Below are positions 6,197-61,807 of a stretch of DNA of 64,000 nt, piece by piece. The notes beneath the pieces are model-generated. The model ran no database searches. It was not told the DNA's origin and saw only the letters and a list, made by a program, of their open reading frames with translations. Where the stretch lies: assembly GCA_025201375.1 (NCBI GenBank), contig JAIWZP010000001.1, forward strand, positions 310,001 to 374,000, read 5' to 3'. Source of the DNA: Gongronella butleri (Eukaryota; Mucoromycota; Mucoromycetes; Mucorales; Cunninghamellaceae). Within the stretch, counting starts at the first letter, position 1, and every line of letters starts with the position of its first letter. The position numbers and the translations under genes were made by a program.

Positions 6197-7565
6197 ATGA
6201 GTGAACATCCCACCGTGCCTGCCGTCAGCGTGGCTGAAGCCAAGAACATTGCAAGTGAATTCCACAGCCGCACTCAAAACTCCGCCAGTCCTGCGCACCA
6301 CCACACAGATCTTGGCCATCCGCCTCCCAATGCGTCGTCGTCGACGCTGAGAGACTGGTCCTTGCTGCAAGACCCCGTCATCCACACGGAACGCCTGGAT
6401 GCCATCCGCAACAAAAAGGGCTACATCATCGACATGGATGGTGTCATCTACCACGTAAGCAAAAAAAAAAAAAAAAAAATCGCGTGGAAAACACGGGGGT
6501 TGGCAAATCTGACACCATGGGTCTTTCTTTTTTTTTTCTTCTTTGCCTTAGGGTGGCACTTTGTTGCCAGGCGCTATTGAGCTTGTCAACTTTTTGCAAA
6601 AGAACAACAAGAAGTTCTTGTTTTTGACCAACAACTCGGCGCCCACGCCGCGTGAGCTGCAGTCCAAATTGGAGCGCCTGGGCATCAATGTCGGTGAGGA
6701 TCACTTTTTCACCTCTGGCCAGGCCACCGCCTACTTTTTAAAGTCGCAAGCCCCTGACGTAAGCTGAACACGGGATCAATTCATGCAATTGACGTGACTG
6801 ACGTCTCTTTTTTTTCTATTTCCAGGGTGGCACCGTCTATGTCATTGGTGAGCCTGGCTTGGCCTACTCGCTGTACGATATGGGCTTTTTCATGAATGAT
6901 CATAACCCCGACTATGTGGTTCTTGGTGAAAGCAACACGTACAACTTTGAAAAGCTTACCAAGGCCGTGCAATTGGTCCAGCAGGGCGCAAAGCTCATTG
7001 CCACCCACTTGGACACGGAGAATCTGGATTCGGTCGGCCGCAAGATCCCTGCAACTGGCGCATTCACCGCCAGCGTCGAATTAGTCACCAACACCAAGGC
7101 TTTCTATTGCGGCAAACCTTCTGCACTCATCATGCGCTACGCGCAGCGCGTCCTCGGCCTCAGCCGACTTGAAACATGCATCATTGGCGATCGCATGGAT
7201 ACAGAGTAAGCAATTAAAAGAAGAAAAAATGATAAAACAAAGCGAGAACACATTTACTCATCTCTTATTTCGTGTGTTCCGTGTGTATTGCGCAGCATTG
7301 TTGCTGGTATCTCATCTGAAATTGATCCTGTGCTCGTGCTCTCTGGTGTGACAAGCATGGACATGCTGCAGCAATACGCTTACCGCCCTTATTTGATTCT
7401 TGGCGGCGTGTACGAGATCCCGGCCGATGGCGAAGAGCATTTGGTCAGTCAATCAGACATGGATGAGGCCGCCAGACGCGTAAGTGCACCGTTAAATCTC
7501 CTCGCATGTCGAAATTTAACCAATTTTCGTTTTTTTTTTCCATGTTGCAGGCATCCTTCCTTTAA
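6197..7565 (+). CDS. NagD-type HAD superfamily (class IIA) phosphatase
   Basis: Five exons: 6197-6454, 6552-6758, 6826-7205, 7296-7479, 7551-7565 (347 aa). HAD motif I is DMDGVIYHGG (nucleophile Asp79, acid/base Asp81). Motif II lies in FLFLTNNSAPTPREL. The motif III lysine is probably in YCGKPSALIM, and motif IV is GDRMDTDIVAG. The C-terminal SGVTSMDMLQQYAYRP and LGGVYEI also match NagD. Families of this type hydrolyse nucleotide monophosphates or small phosphoesters in the cytosol. The core looks closer to bacterial NagD than to fungal Pho13 (which has DCDGVLW). An approximately 70-residue His/Ser-rich N-terminal extension precedes it. The last exon encodes only four residues plus stop, so the C-terminus is the least certain part. 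Confidence 0.88.
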
Positions 7566-52953: not shown

Positions 52954-55329
52954 ATGACCTCGTTGACGCGCTCCACCACCTGGAAGCGCCGCGATAGTGC
53001 GTCACCGCCACGCATCCGCGGCCGGTCGTCTTCATTCACGGCGTTGATGCGCCTGAAGCAGCAAGACCAGCAGCACCAGCAGCAGCAACAACAACAACAA
53101 CAACAAGACCGGTCATTGCCGCGGCGCAATGATTCGCATCACACGCTGCCCACGTATGACATGGCGCCAAAGCGCCAGCCGTCATCCACTTTTTTGATGC
53201 CCCACGACCCCATACCAACCACCGGCTCATCCATGTATAGCGGCTCTGACGACGACGATGACGATGATGATGATGTCGATGATGATGATGATGACTTGCG
53301 TGCCATGCCCACGCGTCTCAATGCGTCTACATCTGCCTCGTACAACGCGTCATCGGCGCAATCCCGCCCTCTACGCGTCGATCCGGGCTATACGCCATCC
53401 CCCACGGGCGCTTCCTCATCCACGTCGTCGTCCACTTATGAGCCACCCCCTGTGCCGGCTAAAGAGCCCGGGCCCATCAGTGCTCCACTTGAAAAGAAAC
53501 TGTCGCTGCAATTCAAGGATAAATTGCAGTTTGCACGACGGTCGCAGAGCACAAAGGGCGGCCTCACCCACGGATTCTCGCTCTGGAAGCATCACCATCA
53601 TCACTCGGCAACCTCCACGTCGAATGACACGCCAAAGCTCTATGACGATGGCAAAAATGTCTACCCGCCCCGACACATCGCAGATACCCGTCGAAGGTAA
53701 GTGCGTCCATTCGCCATGAAAGATCCTCAATGGCTTATTTTCTTTTTTCATTTTATACAGGGACCAATACGGATTTACACAATCGACGCAATGGATCACA
53801 GCCGAAGAATACGAAACATTTGAACAAGAATACACGCCCATCATGGCGCGCCGGTCACAAAAATGGCGCGCGCTACTTGAAGAGAACCAGGGCCAGTGGC
53901 CGCAGCCAAGCAGCAAATGTAGGGTCCGCAGACTCTATTCCGAATTCTCGGGCTCAATTGTCTTTTTTCTTTTTCTTTTTTTTTTTTTTAGTCAAGCGAT
54001 ACGTGCGCAAAGGTATCCCGCCCGAATTTCGCGCCAGTGTATGTCAATGGGTCCCTGAATCACTTGGCGCGTCCGCTGACATGTTTTTTTTTGACCGTAG
54101 GCATGGTTTCACTATAGTGGCGCTGAGACGTGTATGCGCGCGAATCTTGGCGTGTACCAACAGTGCGTGCAAAAGGCCATAGACATGGGCAGCGACAAGA
54201 ATGAATACCTTGATATCATAGAGCGAGGTAAAATGACAATGGACACAATCTGGCCAGCTGGCATGAACACTCTTTTTTTTTTTTTTCCAAATTCCATTAG
54301 ATTTACATCGCACTTTTCCTGACAATGTCAAGTTTAAATCCAAGAATCGCAGCTCGACAACGCTTGCACAGCCTCAGGAGGGTGACTCGGCAGCCATTCG
54401 ATCGTTGCGCAACATCCTGTACGCATTTTCGGTGTACGCGCCGTCCATTGGATATTGCCAATCGCTCAATTACATTGCCGGCTTTTTATTGCTTTTCATG
54501 GAGGAGGAACGCGCATTTTGGACCTTTGTGACGCTGATCCAGGATATTCTGCCGGCCAATGTGTACGACATGTCCATGGAGGGCGCTAGCATTGACCAAA
54601 ACATCCTCATGATGCTCCTTTCCGAGCGTTGTCCGCACATTTGGCAGCGCATCGCCGGCGGCCGCTCCTTTTGGGAGTGCGACGATCCAAATGGCCTGGG
54701 AATGCCCACAAGCTCACTCGTCACAAGCCATTGGTTCTTGACCTTGTTCATCAACATCTTGCCGACAGAGGTAAAAAAGGGAGAAAAAATAATGTTGCAT
54801 GACAGTGTCGCGTCGCATCGTGTCATTCTCATTCTTCTTACATCAATTTAGTCTGTGTTGCGAGTCTGGGACTGTCTCTTTTGGTAGGCACGACAAAAAA
54901 AAAAATGCTTATATACAAGGAAATTCACTCTCTTTTATTATTAGCGAGGGAAGACAGACGCTGATGCGCGTGGCACTTGCCATTTTCAAGATGAATGAGG
55001 CGGCAATCATGTCTGTTTCTGATCCGCTCGAGGTGTTCCAGGTGGTACAAAACATGCCAAAGCGAATGGTGGACTGCCACTATCTGATGGACGCGACCTT
55101 TTACAAGTACGCGTCTGTAACACGCGTCAATGACCAAGATCTGGAGCGGCGGCGCGCTATTTTCAAGCAGCGGCGCGATGAGCGGAGACGAGGCAAGCCT
55201 CCGCTCCCCAGCAAGCTTCAGCGCGGCGGTGTCGCGGGCACACTGCTCTCAAAAGCAAAGGAACGCATCGTTGAGAGGGCAAAAAGCACCGTGCGCCATC
55301 CAAAATCCCCTGGTTATCCGCCATCTTGA
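52954..55329 (+). CDS. TBC-domain Rab GTPase-activating protein
   Basis: Seven exons: 52954-53696, 53761-53918, 53992-54038, 54101-54227, 54301-54770, 54852-54883, 54945-55329 (653 aa). The first 250 residues are disordered and low-complexity, with a Gln run, an Asp run and a His run. The TBC domain starts at KRYVRKGIPPEFRA. It carries both catalytic fingers: the arginine finger IERDLHRTFPD (IxxDxxR) and the glutamine finger GYCQSLNYIAG (YxQ). Further matches are SLVTSHWFLTLFINILP, LRVWDCLF and LMRVALAIFKMNE. Such proteins switch off Rab GTPases in membrane traffic; the spacing recalls the Gyp2/TBC1D-type group, but the Rab substrate cannot be predicted. The C-terminus is basic. Confidence 0.92.
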
Positions 55330-56126: not shown

Positions 56127-58288
56127 ACCATACCTTGTTGCCAATGCTGCTGAAACCGCGGAACAAGTCGTTTTGCGAGAAGCTAGATGTCGATGGGTTG
56201 GGATTAGGCGACGTCAGCATCGATGTCATGCGCATGAGTGCGCGCACCCTACAAAAAAAAAGGCAAAAATAAGGGCAAGTTAGATGCGGTCGCGCCTTTT
56301 TTTTTTTTTACGCGTTTCCACTTACTTTTCAATGTATTTGAGTGGTGCCATGTTGCAGCCTGCCTTTTCGAGAGCCTTTTTGTAGGCGTCCATGTCTTCG
56401 GCAGGTATCTCCTCGACGGTCGACAGATAATAAATCAAAAACAAGCGCATTTTATCCTCAGGGTTCTTTTTCTCGGGATCATTGATCGCTTCCAATAGCA
56501 CCGCCTTGCCCTATATGCAAAAACATGAGCCACCGCGCCTTTTTTTCTCTTTCTCTGTAATTGATCATTACCTGACGAGCGATATTCTCTTCGATTTGGA
56601 AAAATGTGTCAAGTTGGCGGTCCTTGATATGGTTCAATAGAGACGTGGCGACATTCATGTGCATGTCGAGCGTCGCCTTGCGTGCCGTGAGCTCGGGCAG
56701 AGCACCAATTGCCGATTTCAGGATCTTGGTGTTGCTCGACATGTCCCTATGGTTGGCCGTGTCAGTTAAAAAAAAGGGGGGGGGAACAGAATCATCAGCA
56801 CTTACAATTGACCCACGTCCTCCAAGGAGCTGACGCCACTGATGCGTGTGATCTCGGCCGCGTCTCGCTTGTAATTGTTCAATTCCAAATCAATGTCCTC
56901 TGCGCAAAAGTAAAAAAAAAAGGGGGGGGTGCGATCAGATGCAGCCATTTTACGGTTTTTTCGATTTTTTTTTTTTTTTTTTGGGATTTGTGCGTTACCA
57001 GCGACTTGGGGGAAGGGATTGGGGGCATTCTTGTTCCAGAAAAAGTCGGCGCGGTCGACATCGTAGCTGCGTCGCATCTTGTTTTGCTCGTCTGGCTCGA
57101 GGGTGATGCGATTGAGCTTGAGAGAGAGGACGTCGTGGATGAGGGCCTGGTACGTCCAAGAATGGCTGAGCATGGGGGTCAGGTCCATATTGCGATCAAG
57201 CAGGATGAGGACGGGGCGCTGCAAATGAATATGGCTACTGGCGTGCTCGCTAAACAGATTGGTGCGCGAATTCATGACGTGGTCGCGCAGCTTGCTGTCC
57301 AGCTTGTTAGCAATCATCTCGGCAGCATTGCCGCGCGGGCAGCGAATGATGGGTATCATGCCCATGGTCACAATCACCGAAAACAGCGAATTGACCGCAC
57401 GGTCGATGGTTTCGTCAATCAGGCTGTCTGGTGCCGTCGGATTGTTCAGGTTGATAAATGCATCCTCTTGGTGCAGCGAGAACACGTCCGCATTCGTGCA
57501 AATGAAATTCAAATACTGGTCGTACACCTGCGTCACCTGCTCAGACGTGTTGCTTTGAATCGTCTTGGTCGCAAAATCTTCCAACAGTGGCCGTGGCACC
57601 GTCGAGCAAAAGTTGATGTAATAATCGTCGTACAAGTTGCGATTGAGATCCTAAAGTGAAAAAAAAAACGCGTTCAATCGCATGTAAATCACGTGCAAGA
57701 GACGCGTCCAATACGCGTCAAAATGCCCATTTGCCCCCCCCCCATTTTCGCGTCCAATCCCCAAATTGATCCCGCAATGGATATTTACCTCGCACAAGCG
57801 ACGAATATTCTCGGCCGAGGGCTCGATAAAGTAGACGGCAGGCACGTCGGGCAGCGGTGAGCGATCACTGCTTAGCAACCTAGCCAAAAAAAAAAATACG
57901 AAAAACGATAAAAGAAGAAGAAAAAGGATGAGCAAGCGCCATTCCCCCTCGCCCCAAGTTCGGATTCAGGGCGAATTGGATGCTTACATGTGCACCGTGA
58001 TGCCATTCTCGCGCAGATCGTTCACGCGCATAATGGAAGACACAATGTCCTGGCAAAACCGATCAAAAATCAAGACTTTCCATACTGGTCCGTCCTGCAG
58101 CGCCTTGGCATCGTCGTATTCGTTCAATCCTTTGTTCTCGTCCGTCGCCGTGTTGAGATTGAGCATGGTGGCAATAGCATCTGCAAAAAAAAAGGGGGTG
58201 TCACCGCCCACGTCCCTTATTTTTCGTCTCAAATCCTTCCCCAAGTCTTACCATACTGATAGGAACGAAGCGACGATGTGTCAGACAT
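55647..58288 (-). CDS. SLY1: Sec1/Munc18 protein Sly1 (ER-Golgi SNARE regulator)
   Basis: Nine exons on the minus strand: 58288-58252, 58180-57988, 57879-57789, 57650-56999, 56899-56806, 56746-56572, 56510-56326, 56248-56134, 56045-55647 (646 aa, close to yeast Sly1). Motifs in order: WKVLIFDRFCQDIVSSIMRV, DVPAVYFIEPSAENIRRLCE, DLNRNLYDDYYINFCSTVPR, RPVLILLDRNMDLTPMLSHS, WTYQALIHDVLSLKLNRITL, KAVLLEAINDPEKKNPEDKM, VSFQEAIVFVVGGGNYVEYQ. Sly1 binds Sed5/Ufe1-type syntaxins and drives SNARE assembly for ER-Golgi and retrograde transport. It is divergent from the HAC1-like gene, which fits secretory-pathway control, though co-regulation is only inferred. Confidence 0.94.
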
Positions 58289-58665
58289 ATCTCGTGCTTA
58301 TCAACCAAGGGCGTAAGAGGGGAATAGATGAGGTGTCAAGAAAGTGGCAAGCAACAAGAAGCGACAAGAAAAAAGACAAATGGGCGCAACACCAAGTCGT
58401 GATTCAAAATCAAGGCCCCAGAAGCATTTCACTTTTGAATTGGCGACTGGCACCGAAGAGGGCGCAAACGTGGCACTTAGTTTTGCGCTGACGCGATGAA
58501 GACAAGCATTTTTCACGCAAATCGATCTAGCATGAATCCAACTCCCAAAAATAGGATAGGTCTGCTCCTTTGGGAATTCTTTTTTTATCAAAAAGAAAGA
58601 AAGGGTGGGGACTACGGCACAACGTGTTCCAATGAAACAGGATGCAATGGCAATTGCCGATGCTT

Positions 58666-58699
<34 letters not shown>

Positions 58700-59297
58700 C
58701 CTTTTTTTTGTAATAGGGTCTTGGCGTGCTGGGCGCTCCTGTGTCCTTGCCCATTGGTATGACACAGGGCCACTGGTGTGCTGCTACAGCCGAGACCAGC
58801 CGAGAAAGTCAGCAAAAAAGGCACGATTCATGTTGAAAAAAAAGAAAGGCCCATTGGCTAGGCCAAGACAGCCTGTTACCCTTGCTAATTCACGCAATTC
58901 CCGAGCCATCTCACGTGATGACCAAGCACAAGCTAATGAGGCAGAAGGGCGGGGGGCCCAAGGTCACGATGATGAGGGAACATCCATTTTTTTTTCCGGT
59001 GACACCTTTGCACAAGAGAACAGATGTTCCATCCTGATTGGCCAGGATCCACTGGCACACACCCTCCTTATCCGCCAAGGTGGGCGAAATACAAAAGGCT
59101 GCCCCTTCCTTGAGATTCTTTTCTTTTCTTTTCTTTAGACTTTCCTCTTTTTTTTTTCTCCCCTTGCAACTTTGAACACTTTTGATATCAATCCATTGGG
59201 TGGTGGTATATTGAACTTGTTCTCTTTGTGTGCTATTCTCTTTTGATCTTTGTTTACTTCTTTCTCAAGCCCCTTCGCTTTGAAAAAATCTCAAAAA
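58289..59297. promoter_or_regulatory. Divergent promoter region of SLY1 and the HAC1-like gene
   Basis: One kilobase between divergent starts. It contains CACGTG at 58912-58917, ATTGG/CCAAT elements near 58735-58760, 58850 and 59036, and pyrimidine tracts close to both ends. No other gene is seen. UPR-type elements (for example CCAAT-N9-CCACG) were looked for and not found in a perfect form. Confidence 0.4.
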
Positions 59298-60353
59298 ATG
59301 TCATCGACCTCGTCCTCTGACTCTCTGACCTCGCTGCTCAGCATGCCCCTGCCGTTCACTATTGATCCCATGGCCACGCTGCAGTGTGAGTCATCCTCCT
59401 CTGGATACTTGTTCCCTCTTTTGCCCATCAAGACGGACGATGATGCCTCTTCCATGTCGTCATCGCCCTCGTCGCCCTCGTCGCTTTCGCTGTCGCCTTC
59501 GCTGTCGCCAAAGGACAAGAAGAAGATCAGCAAGCCGGTGGTCAAAAAGTCGCGCATCTCCTTGGAGGATAAAGACCAAAAGACAAAGGAAAGAATCTTG
59601 CGAAACCGCGCAGCCGCGCAAGAATCTCGCGACAAAAAGCGCCGCTACGTCGCCGACCTGGAATCCAACAACAAGAAGCTCACCGAAGAAAATGAGATGA
59701 TGAACAAGAAGCTCAAGCTTATGGAATCGCAGAATCACCTTCTCCTCGCTCAACTCGCACAATTGCACGCTCATCTCGCCAAGGATGCCGCCGTCACCGC
59801 CAGCTCCACCGCATCTGACTCAGCCTCATTGCTTGCTCATGGCTTTTGCGATTCAGCACGGATCGCAAGAGGCCATGGCCCATTGTCCGCCTTGCCTTTA
59901 CGCCTTGCCGCCTAATGAAGGCACGCTCCCACAAAAACGTCGTCCGTCCATCAGCAAAAAAAATCATTGTTGCCAGAAAAAAAAAACCAGCCCCCCCCTC
60001 AGGATCGCCTCACCACCACCACCTCAAAATTCCACCACCCAATGGATTGAAATCACGGCTTTTTCCCCTTACTTTTTTTTTTTTTTTGCTGATGGACCAC
60101 GCACGCGCAAGGTTTTCCGTCTCTCGTATTGGCAACATGGCAACTTTGGTCCATTGGTCTTTTCCCTGCAGCGGAGGTTGTGCAGCAAGTCAATGAACTG
60201 AATCAGGTCGCCGCCCGTCTGGCCGGTCTCCCCTCGCCCATGCTCTCTCCTCAAGTCTCCTCGTCAGCCTCGGCTTCCTCAGAAGATGGCTCGCCTGTGA
60301 TGACGCCCGATCTATATGATCTTTTTGATTGGGAAGGTCAGCAGCATGCCTAA
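59298..60353 (+). CDS. HAC1: HAC1/XBP1-type bZIP transcription factor of the unfolded protein response
   Basis: Proposed spliced form: 59298-59856 joined to 60169-60353 (247 aa). The unspliced frame ends at 59915 (205 aa). The Ser-rich N-terminus is followed by a basic stretch (KDKKKISKPVVKKSR). The bZIP basic region ILRNRAAAQESRDKKRRY is about residues 100-117, and a leucine zipper follows (LESNNKKLTEENEMMNKKLK). This NRxAAQxSR type is typical of HAC1/XBP1. The second exon adds AEVVQQVNELNQVAARLAGL and ends in an acidic tail (TPDLYDLFDWEGQQHA), a likely activation domain. The intervening 312 bases lack GT-AG ends and are bounded by Ire1-type hairpins. Under ER stress the nuclease Ire1 would remove them, giving the active nuclear factor. 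AATAAA-type signals follow near 60533. Confidence 0.85.
59848..59866 (+). promoter_or_regulatory. Ire1-type 5' splice-site hairpin
   Basis: Stem GCGATT (59848-59853) pairs with GATCGC (59861-59866): five Watson-Crick pairs and a terminal G-U. The loop is seven bases, CAGCACG (59854-59860), with cleavage expected after the third base (CAG|CACG, after 59856). Loop size and the C-N-G|C start match the known Ire1 sites; the sixth base is C instead of the usual G. Confidence 0.72.
59857..60168 (+). other. Candidate unconventional (Ire1-dependent) intron, 312 nt
   Basis: It starts CACGGATC and ends CCCTG, so it is not a GT-AG intron, unlike all others read in this window. It contains a stop of the unspliced frame at 59913-59915, A and C runs, and a 15-base T run near 60072-60086. 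Removing it joins codon phase 1 to phase 1 (G + CA gives Ala187), keeping the frame to the stop at 60351-60353. Confidence 0.75.
60161..60177 (+). promoter_or_regulatory. Ire1-type 3' splice-site hairpin
   Basis: Stem TTTCC (60161-60165) with GGAGG (60173-60177): C-G, C-G, T-A and two G-U pairs. The seven-base loop is CTGCAGC (60166-60172), identical to the 3' loop of animal XBP1, with cleavage expected after CTG (60168). Confidence 0.75.
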
Positions 60354-60929
60354 AGGCGCCCCGGCAATCCCCTCCCCCCTCCCTCTTTTGTGCATTCCGG
60401 ACTAGTTGATCTCTCGCTGTCCCCCCGATTCCTTGTCTATAGCTTTCATCTACTTACTCATTTTACTTTTTAGCTGTTCCCCCTTTCCCCCCTGTCCCTA
60501 ATTGTTGCTTTGTGATTCCTCTTCTCTTTGAAATAAAATAAACACTTTGTGAACTTATAAAAAATTGCGATTTTGGTGCCTTTGGTGTGGTTTGGGTGCT
60601 TGTGTTATATATAATTTCATGCCATGCTCAGAGACGGGGGATGCACTCGATTCGAAAAAAAAAATGGTGGGGAGCCGAGCCAGGTGCCGACTTGGACGCG
60701 TATTAGCCGGTAAGCTTGTATTTTGCTGTTTGATGCACGCCTTGGCCAACATGGCTTGAGGTGACACGCATCAAATATGCTCCAAATATCTACTATATGC
60801 CTGTCTGGCAAATAAAATAAACGATCGATAACGCGGTCGTCGAGAAATGTTACAAAAATGCCGTTTTCATCTCCGTTTGTCGTGTGTGTCGATGAATTTA
60901 CACTTGACAACAGCATCCATCCTTTCGAT
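60354..60929. other. 3' UTR of the HAC1-like gene and intergenic sequence
   Basis: Pyrimidine-rich 3' UTR with AAATAAAATAAAC near 60531-60543 as polyadenylation signal. A second AAATAAAATAAAC lies near 60811. No gene is seen. Confidence 0.45.
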
Positions 60930-61650
60930 CAACGAAATCAGCTGCGCTCGTTCGATTGAGCCCACCGCCAAAGTTCTGCAACCACTAGATGGCACGCAGT
61001 CACCCATTTTCAAAAATCTCGGATTTTCCAAGGGGTCCAGCCGACCATCGGAAAATCGAGAAATCAAAGCCTTCAGATCGCCACGCCATTCACGCAAAAG
61101 GTGAAATCATCTGGATAAACGACAAAAATGCAATAAAAAGGTGGGATCCGTGGCTGGTTTTGGTGCAAACTGCGTTTTAGGTCTTATTTTCGATTCAAGG
61201 TCATCTCGACGAAAAATGTATACATATTGAGGAAACATACACCATTGGAAAGAGCAGGGTACGCTTCGTACGTGAACATTGGTAATCAATAAAAAAGTGA
61301 ATTTTTTGGTATCTTTGGCACGGTTTCAAAGTCATATGTAATTTTCGACGCGTGATAAAGCGCGTCAGACGCCGCGTGACACGCGTCTGTTCTATTTCAA
61401 ATCCATGCCCCTGCTGTCTCTCTTGCTAATGGACGCGTCGGCGCGACTCCATGGACGCCTTCTTCTCGTGCAATTCGCTGTTGAAATTAAATCTAAAATT
61501 GCTAATTGCTCGTCATTGGGTAGATGGAGTACATTCTTTTTTGTCGTTTTCCGTGGTTTCTTCATGCACTTCGTCTTGTGTGAGGGTATGGTGCAATTCT
61601 GATGACTTGAATTTTCAATTTTGGTTTTCGAGGCTCGCCATGACTAAATT
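60930..61650. repeat. Dispersed repeat, inverted partner at 36590-37350
   Basis: Matches the reverse complement of 36590-37350 along its length, including CTGCAACCACTAGATGGC, CGCCACGCCATTCACG, TGGTAATCAATAAAAAAG, GCGCGTCAGACGC, TCAAATCCATGCCCCTG and GAATTTTCAATTTTGGTTTT. No intact open frame was found. Confidence 0.75.
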
Positions 61651-61807
61651 TGCATTTGCTTGTGGCACCCCCATTAAGGCTCATGGTCACCGCAAATCGC
61701 GTCCAACTCGGGTTTCGAGCTGGCCATTTTACGCAAAGTCGCCTTTCGGGGCATTGCAATTGCGTGGATGGCAAGTTTCCATTGGACGGCACGGTAAAAA
61801 TGACCAT

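Follow-up and report, generated by a model that had tools for sequence, protein, structure and literature searches.

The window, a 64,000-nt stretch of Gongronella butleri DNA, carries a HAC1 gene that appears to be spliced by Ire1 and whose unspliced mRNA appears to be translationally locked by pairing between its leader and its intron, a reading to which we assign a probability of about 0.85. A bZIP frame of HAC1 type on the plus strand runs from 59298 to a premature stop ending at 59915 (205 aa unspliced), and removal of 59857-60168 leaves an open frame of 247 aa with a new acidic tail. The parts of the gene are listed below.

59298..59856, plus strand: coding part of exon 1, encoding the bZIP protein as far as the 5' Ire1 site (open reading frame, bZIP_1 and bZIP_2 domains, homologues)
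59857..60168, plus strand: unconventional intron of 312 nt, with an in-frame TAA stop at 59913-59915; neither annotated relative, P0002 or P0008, has it
60169..60353, plus strand: coding part of exon 2, an acidic C-terminal tail ending LYDLFDWEGQQHA (alignments to P0002 and P0008; exon-2 motif in homologues)

The preliminary description of this locus had proposed the early-stopping HAC1-type frame, its exact restoration with gain of an acidic C terminus, and two seven-base loops, CAGCACG at 59854-59860 and CTGCAGC at 60166-60172, at the borders of the intron; all of these were confirmed at the coordinates claimed. Pfam models PF00170 and PF07716 both scored above cut-off at residues 92-151, which places the bZIP domain upstream of the intron. 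The single PDB match was 6iak_A ('Uncharacterized protein'), covering residues 88-184. A search of the 33.0-Mb genome (110 contigs) returned only the two exons of the HAC1 locus and no paralogues, indicating a single-copy gene.

The splice junction was analyzed by comparison with 73 homologous proteins, among them P0001, an exact match to the protein encoded in the window; the closest homologue with a name comes from Hesseltinella vesiculosa (Mucorales, Cunninghamellaceae). FCDSA|AEV, the predicted product of Ire1 splicing, occurred in two of the 73, P0002 (Hesseltinella vesiculosa) and P0008 (Mucor lusitanicus), which are annotated gene models of unstated derivation. Pairwise alignment across the junction gave 161/245 identities between the spliced protein and P0002 and 114/251 between it and P0008; exon 2 is thus real coding sequence. 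The exon-2 motif was reached by seven of the 73 homologues (P0002, P0008, P0012, P0013, P0014, P0018, and P0027). A pattern search for F[CR][DE]SAR[IV][AV] retrieved 44 of the 73, own protein included, and in these the annotated frame continues past the 5' site into intron sequence. Many of the homologues free of the pattern came from outside the Mucorales (Mortierella and allies, Endogonales, and a chytrid). Across 37 aligned proteins, likeness spanned the hairpin-coding peptide and dropped after it in those reading into the intron, as would be expected if selection acts on the RNA hairpin and not on the peptide. No relatives' DNA was present among the 25 pattern matches in viral contigs and the 128 in genome contigs.

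As alternatives in which the spliceosome joins the exons, we enumerated donors at 59700-60150 and acceptors at 59950-60235 with introns of at least 40 nt. The frame to the tail was kept by 63 GC-AG, 31 AT-AC, and three of 100 GT-AG combinations, and other joins are annotated in the relatives P0012, P0013, P0014, and P0018, all of which favors the spliceosome. However, the three GT-AG combinations all use the sole workable GT donor, which is poor (GTCACC at 59793), and none of the three falls at the HAC1 junction. Sliding the junction along its shared CAG gave only GC-CT, CA-TG, AC-GC, and CG-CA ends, with no GT-AG, GC-AG, or AT-AC among them, and the exact Ire1 junction is present in P0002 and P0008. 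Joining by the spliceosome is thus highly improbable. The preliminary description had named a conventional GT-AG junction between the same exons as the result that would speak against Ire1; one was looked for and none fits.

Genes for the splicing machinery are present in the genome. IRE1 is a 729-aa open frame on contig C97 in which a kinase domain (PF00069, E 2.8e-37) is followed by an RNase domain (PF06479, E 1.4e-23), and an RNA ligase of the tRNA ligase type (PF09511, E 4.9e-54) is encoded on contig C45. Because the junction recurs in two relatives, the hairpin peptide is found in 44/73 homologues, no GT-AG junction fits, and both IRE1 and the ligase are encoded, HAC1 is almost certainly spliced by Ire1, in agreement with the earlier proposal that this gene is the unfolded protein response (UPR) switch of the fungus.

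The two putative splice-site hairpins differ in predicted strength.

59847..59867, plus strand: 5' splice-site hairpin with loop CAGCACG, cut presumably after 59856 (folding); codes FCDSARIA
60161..60177, plus strand: 3' splice-site hairpin with loop CTGCAGC, cut presumably after 60168 (YCNGNNGNG plus 4-bp stem); weak

The 5' hairpin folded at -10.3 kcal/mol in a 22-nt piece and at -24.4 kcal/mol in a 41-nt piece, and its four innermost pairs had a probability of ~0.88 within 421 nt. Its codons, TTT TGC GAT TCA GCA CGG ATC GCA A, form both stem and loop, with FCD and IA(K/R) encoded by the two strands. The 3' hairpin folded at only -1.9 kcal/mol alone, had pair probabilities of at most 0.25 in the 421-nt piece and 0.02 in a shorter one, and was missing from the minimum-energy fold; a structure with both hairpins lay ~4.2 kcal/mol (ensemble) above the free fold. 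The earlier claim of two hairpins with seven-base loops therefore stands for the loops and for the 5' stem, and the 3' stem is weak.

The published Ire1 loop consensus requires C1, G3, and G6 (PMC549064), and G6 is reported there as essential to efficient cleavage in yeast tests. In HAC1/XBP1 genes such 7-nt loops sit on stems with a closing G. All three bases are present in the 3' loop CTGCAGC. The 5' loop CAGCACG has C at position 6, and so the 5' site departs from the yeast Ire1 rule and the form CNG|CNGN assigned to it in the preliminary description has to be corrected. In the relatives, the Ser-Ala-Arg peptide would exclude G from loop position 6 and leave C or A there, provided that they share the window's reading frame and its TCN codon for serine. 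A search for the reported pattern YCNGNNGNG with a 4-bp stem found only the 3' site in 59120-60560, but 10 such sites on the plus strand of the window, and the loops alone are therefore weak evidence.

Folding of 59800-60220, which the preliminary description had suggested as a check, gave a z score of -4.52, with none of 100 shuffles as stable. Two long stems were predicted in and around the intron.

59946..60097, plus strand: intron rod with an 18-bp perfect stem, 59946-59963 paired with 60080-60097 (inverted repeat; constrained fold)
59811..59849, plus strand: exon-1 strand of a 36-bp exon-exon stem, pairing with 60171-60211
60171..60211, plus strand: exon-2 strand of the exon-exon stem, pairing with 59811-59849 (folding)

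An A/T run accounts for eight of the 18 pairs of the rod stem. In the spliced RNA the exon-exon stem is predicted to comprise 36 pairs that close a 9-nt loop containing the junction, at -41.7 kcal/mol. Synonymous shuffles that kept the protein and the codon counts had a mean of -24.3 (sd 4.3), and one in 1000 was as stable; the stem was also the most stable of 219 equal-length windows in the coding sequence. The same pairing appeared in the unspliced fold. By analogy, the stem likely keeps the cut ends together and pushes the intron out; Peschek et al. (2015) are said, going by their title, to describe an RNA zipper that ejects the XBP1 intron. Rfam returned four matches on 58500-61000 (E 1.3 to 4), none of which reached the gathering threshold.

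The leader and the intron contain a long complementary pair, which was the first inverted pair of the repeat search.

59183..59214, plus strand: leader arm of the proposed lock, presumably transcribed; its perfect core spans 59188-59206 (-110 to -92 from the ATG)
60024..60055, plus strand: intron arm of the proposed lock; its perfect core spans 60032-60050 (+735 to +753)

The arms are complementary at 29 of 32 positions (91%), including the core of 19 nt, and the constrained fold places the intron arm in the loop closed by the rod stem. There is no ATG in 59120-59297. Leader and intron were dinucleotide-shuffled 2000 times; with low-complexity matches kept, the longest perfect run was 14 nt, reached once. 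When the same geometry was placed 2516 times over the window's two strands, 19 nt was found in only seven placements, all holding the HAC1 pair; the next value was 12 nt without low-complexity matches and 16-18 nt with them. In the unfiltered control the 18-nt match and the one 17-nt match inspected were A-rich runs, and low-complexity matches were for this reason dropped from later controls. With them excluded, the longest run was 13 nt when this geometry was tried at 7200 placements across 20 further stretches of 10 kb. Across the whole 33-Mb genome the core had two perfect matches, which are its own arms, and 19 further sites with up to three mismatches (one with two, the rest with three).

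The predicted cost of opening is 7.5 kcal/mol for the leader and 6.1 kcal/mol for the intron arm, versus -35.6 kcal/mol for the 19-bp helix. This helix was not seen in a 1.28-kb fold, where the leader arm paired locally; it would cross the exon-intron rod as a pseudoknot, which the method cannot build. RNAduplex applied to the whole leader and intron was dropped as a test of the lock, as it did not discriminate from shuffles: the native duplex energy was -56.2 versus a shuffle mean of -47.1 (sd 4.9), ~1.9 sd beyond, and the best of 500 shuffles (-62.9) was better than the native value. By eye, 59207-59270 could be a small conventional leader intron (GTATAT...AAG) starting right after the perfect arm; the outer arm complementarity at 59207-59214 argues that this candidate stays in.

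From these comparisons, a leader-intron lock that acts on translation is likely. The preliminary description had hinted at a translation-attenuating intron, and the 19-nt perfect match, which it did not report, strengthens that suggestion. The complementarity could also be without any translational role in an Ire1-spliced HAC1, arising by chance or from a shared CCAAT-box-like promoter motif, CCATTGG, which is present in both arms. Counting both strands, this motif and its complement have 32 sites in the window where ~7 would be expected, and the duplex energy over the whole stretch is unexceptional. Yet CCATTGG explains only seven of the 19 core bases whereas the match extends to 29/32, neither the shuffles nor the 7200 placements approach 19 nt, and the rod holds the intron arm in its open loop, so that an origin without function seems rather improbable. 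Around HAC1 there are five CCATTGG/CCAATGG sites (58751, 58851, 59193, 60039, and 60151; range 58751-60151), and such sites may be CCAAT-box promoter sites.

A different use of the splicing switch, mainly as in XBP1, would make the unspliced protein a regulator in its own right or a target of degradation by way of the tail that the intron encodes. In favor of this, the frame without splicing is long, at 205 aa, and in yeast the intron-coded tail of Hac1u is reported to target the protein for degradation (PMC5114014). Past the hairpin-coded RIA(K/R), however, the tails of the aligned relatives are short and unalike, and we consider this use unlikely as the main one. The unspliced protein's tail may still have a fail-safe role alongside the lock.

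The preferred reading, an Ire1-spliced HAC1 with a locked unspliced mRNA, would operate as follows. In unstressed cells, the mRNA would retain its 312-nt intron, and the intron loop would pair with leader sequence ahead of the start codon (19 pairs without a mismatch, and 29 of 32 along the longer arm), blocking ribosome loading. Under ER stress, Ire1 would cut CAG|CACG and CTG|CAGC, the cut ends would be kept together by the exon-exon stem, and tRNA ligase would join them. The lock would depart with the intron, and the frame would continue into exon 2, giving the active factor its acidic tail.

S. cerevisiae HAC1 is reported to have the same arrangement of Ire1-type twin loops, a long intron (252 nt), leader-intron pairing, and a C-terminal tail gained on splicing (PMC5114014, PMC6116095). 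In that yeast the pairing keeps ribosomes from loading, and re-establishing it through compensatory changes brings the block back (PMC5114014); cap-proximal pairing matters, and 24 extra bases between the cap and the pairing site released the block (PMC8881652). In contrast, the gene described here belongs to another phylum, its intron is longer, its 5' loop is without G6, and its leader pairing lies ~100 nt upstream of the ATG. It also differs in that folding of 60354-60560 found no yeast-like 3'UTR stem-loop, an accessory feature of the yeast system; the stretch was no more stable than its shuffles (z +1.04). Among yeasts, HAC1 introns are reported to range from 19 to 848 nt (PMC6222058). 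The HAC1 genes of Kluyveromyces lactis and Hansenula polymorpha resemble the present one in their 297- and 177-nt introns and proposed leader pairing (PMC6116095, PMC10608004), but both are budding yeasts, and the K. lactis pairing is reported at -52 to -28 with +909 to +936, in contrast to -110 to -92 with +735 to +753 here.

Cryptococcus neoformans HXL1 is likewise an Ire1-spliced bZIP gene outside Ascomycota, with CAG at both intron borders, but its intron is 56 nt, and its report states that leader complementarity was sought and not found (PMC3154848). The 3'UTR stem-loop, which in yeast carries a bipartite element, is reportedly missing from HXL1 too. Metazoan XBP1 is also an Ire1-spliced bZIP gene with a frame switch, but its intron is given as 20-26 bases and it is without a leader-intron lock.

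The neighborhood of HAC1 includes a Sec1-family frame on the minus strand at 56802-57650 (PF00995, E 2.2e-59), probably a gene of the secretory pathway that points away from HAC1 and has its promoter region in common with it, and a plus-strand frame with a Rab-GTPase TBC domain at 54267-54851 (PF00566, E 6.9e-29). Downstream, 61160-61720 is a dispersed repeat; 701 bases there match at least 40 further places on many contigs, mostly at 73-81% identity (40 of 930 candidates scored). By eye, a relative of this repeat can also be seen on contig C97, past the RNase end of IRE1.

A HAC1 leader-intron lock has so far been reported or proposed for three budding yeasts and, according to the Cryptococcus report, was sought without success in that fungus. 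A literature search outside subscription journals and preprints returned no title or abstract on HAC1 in Mucorales, and an earlier report elsewhere is possible. As far as the literature searched shows, a lock of this type has not been described outside budding yeasts; the unusual 5' loop comes in addition. With such a lock proposed for a mould outside their phylum, whether it arose once or several times becomes directly testable by aligning Mucorales HAC1 loci, and the change at loop position 6 offers a test of Ire1 specificity. We tentatively suggest, at slightly less than even odds, that Mucorales as a group have a yeast-like lock, either invented independently a second time or inherited from ancestral fungi and lost in many lineages, and that they combine it with a 5' Ire1 site that systematically lacks G6 (CNG|CN[C/A]G), which would amount to a changed cleavage rule.
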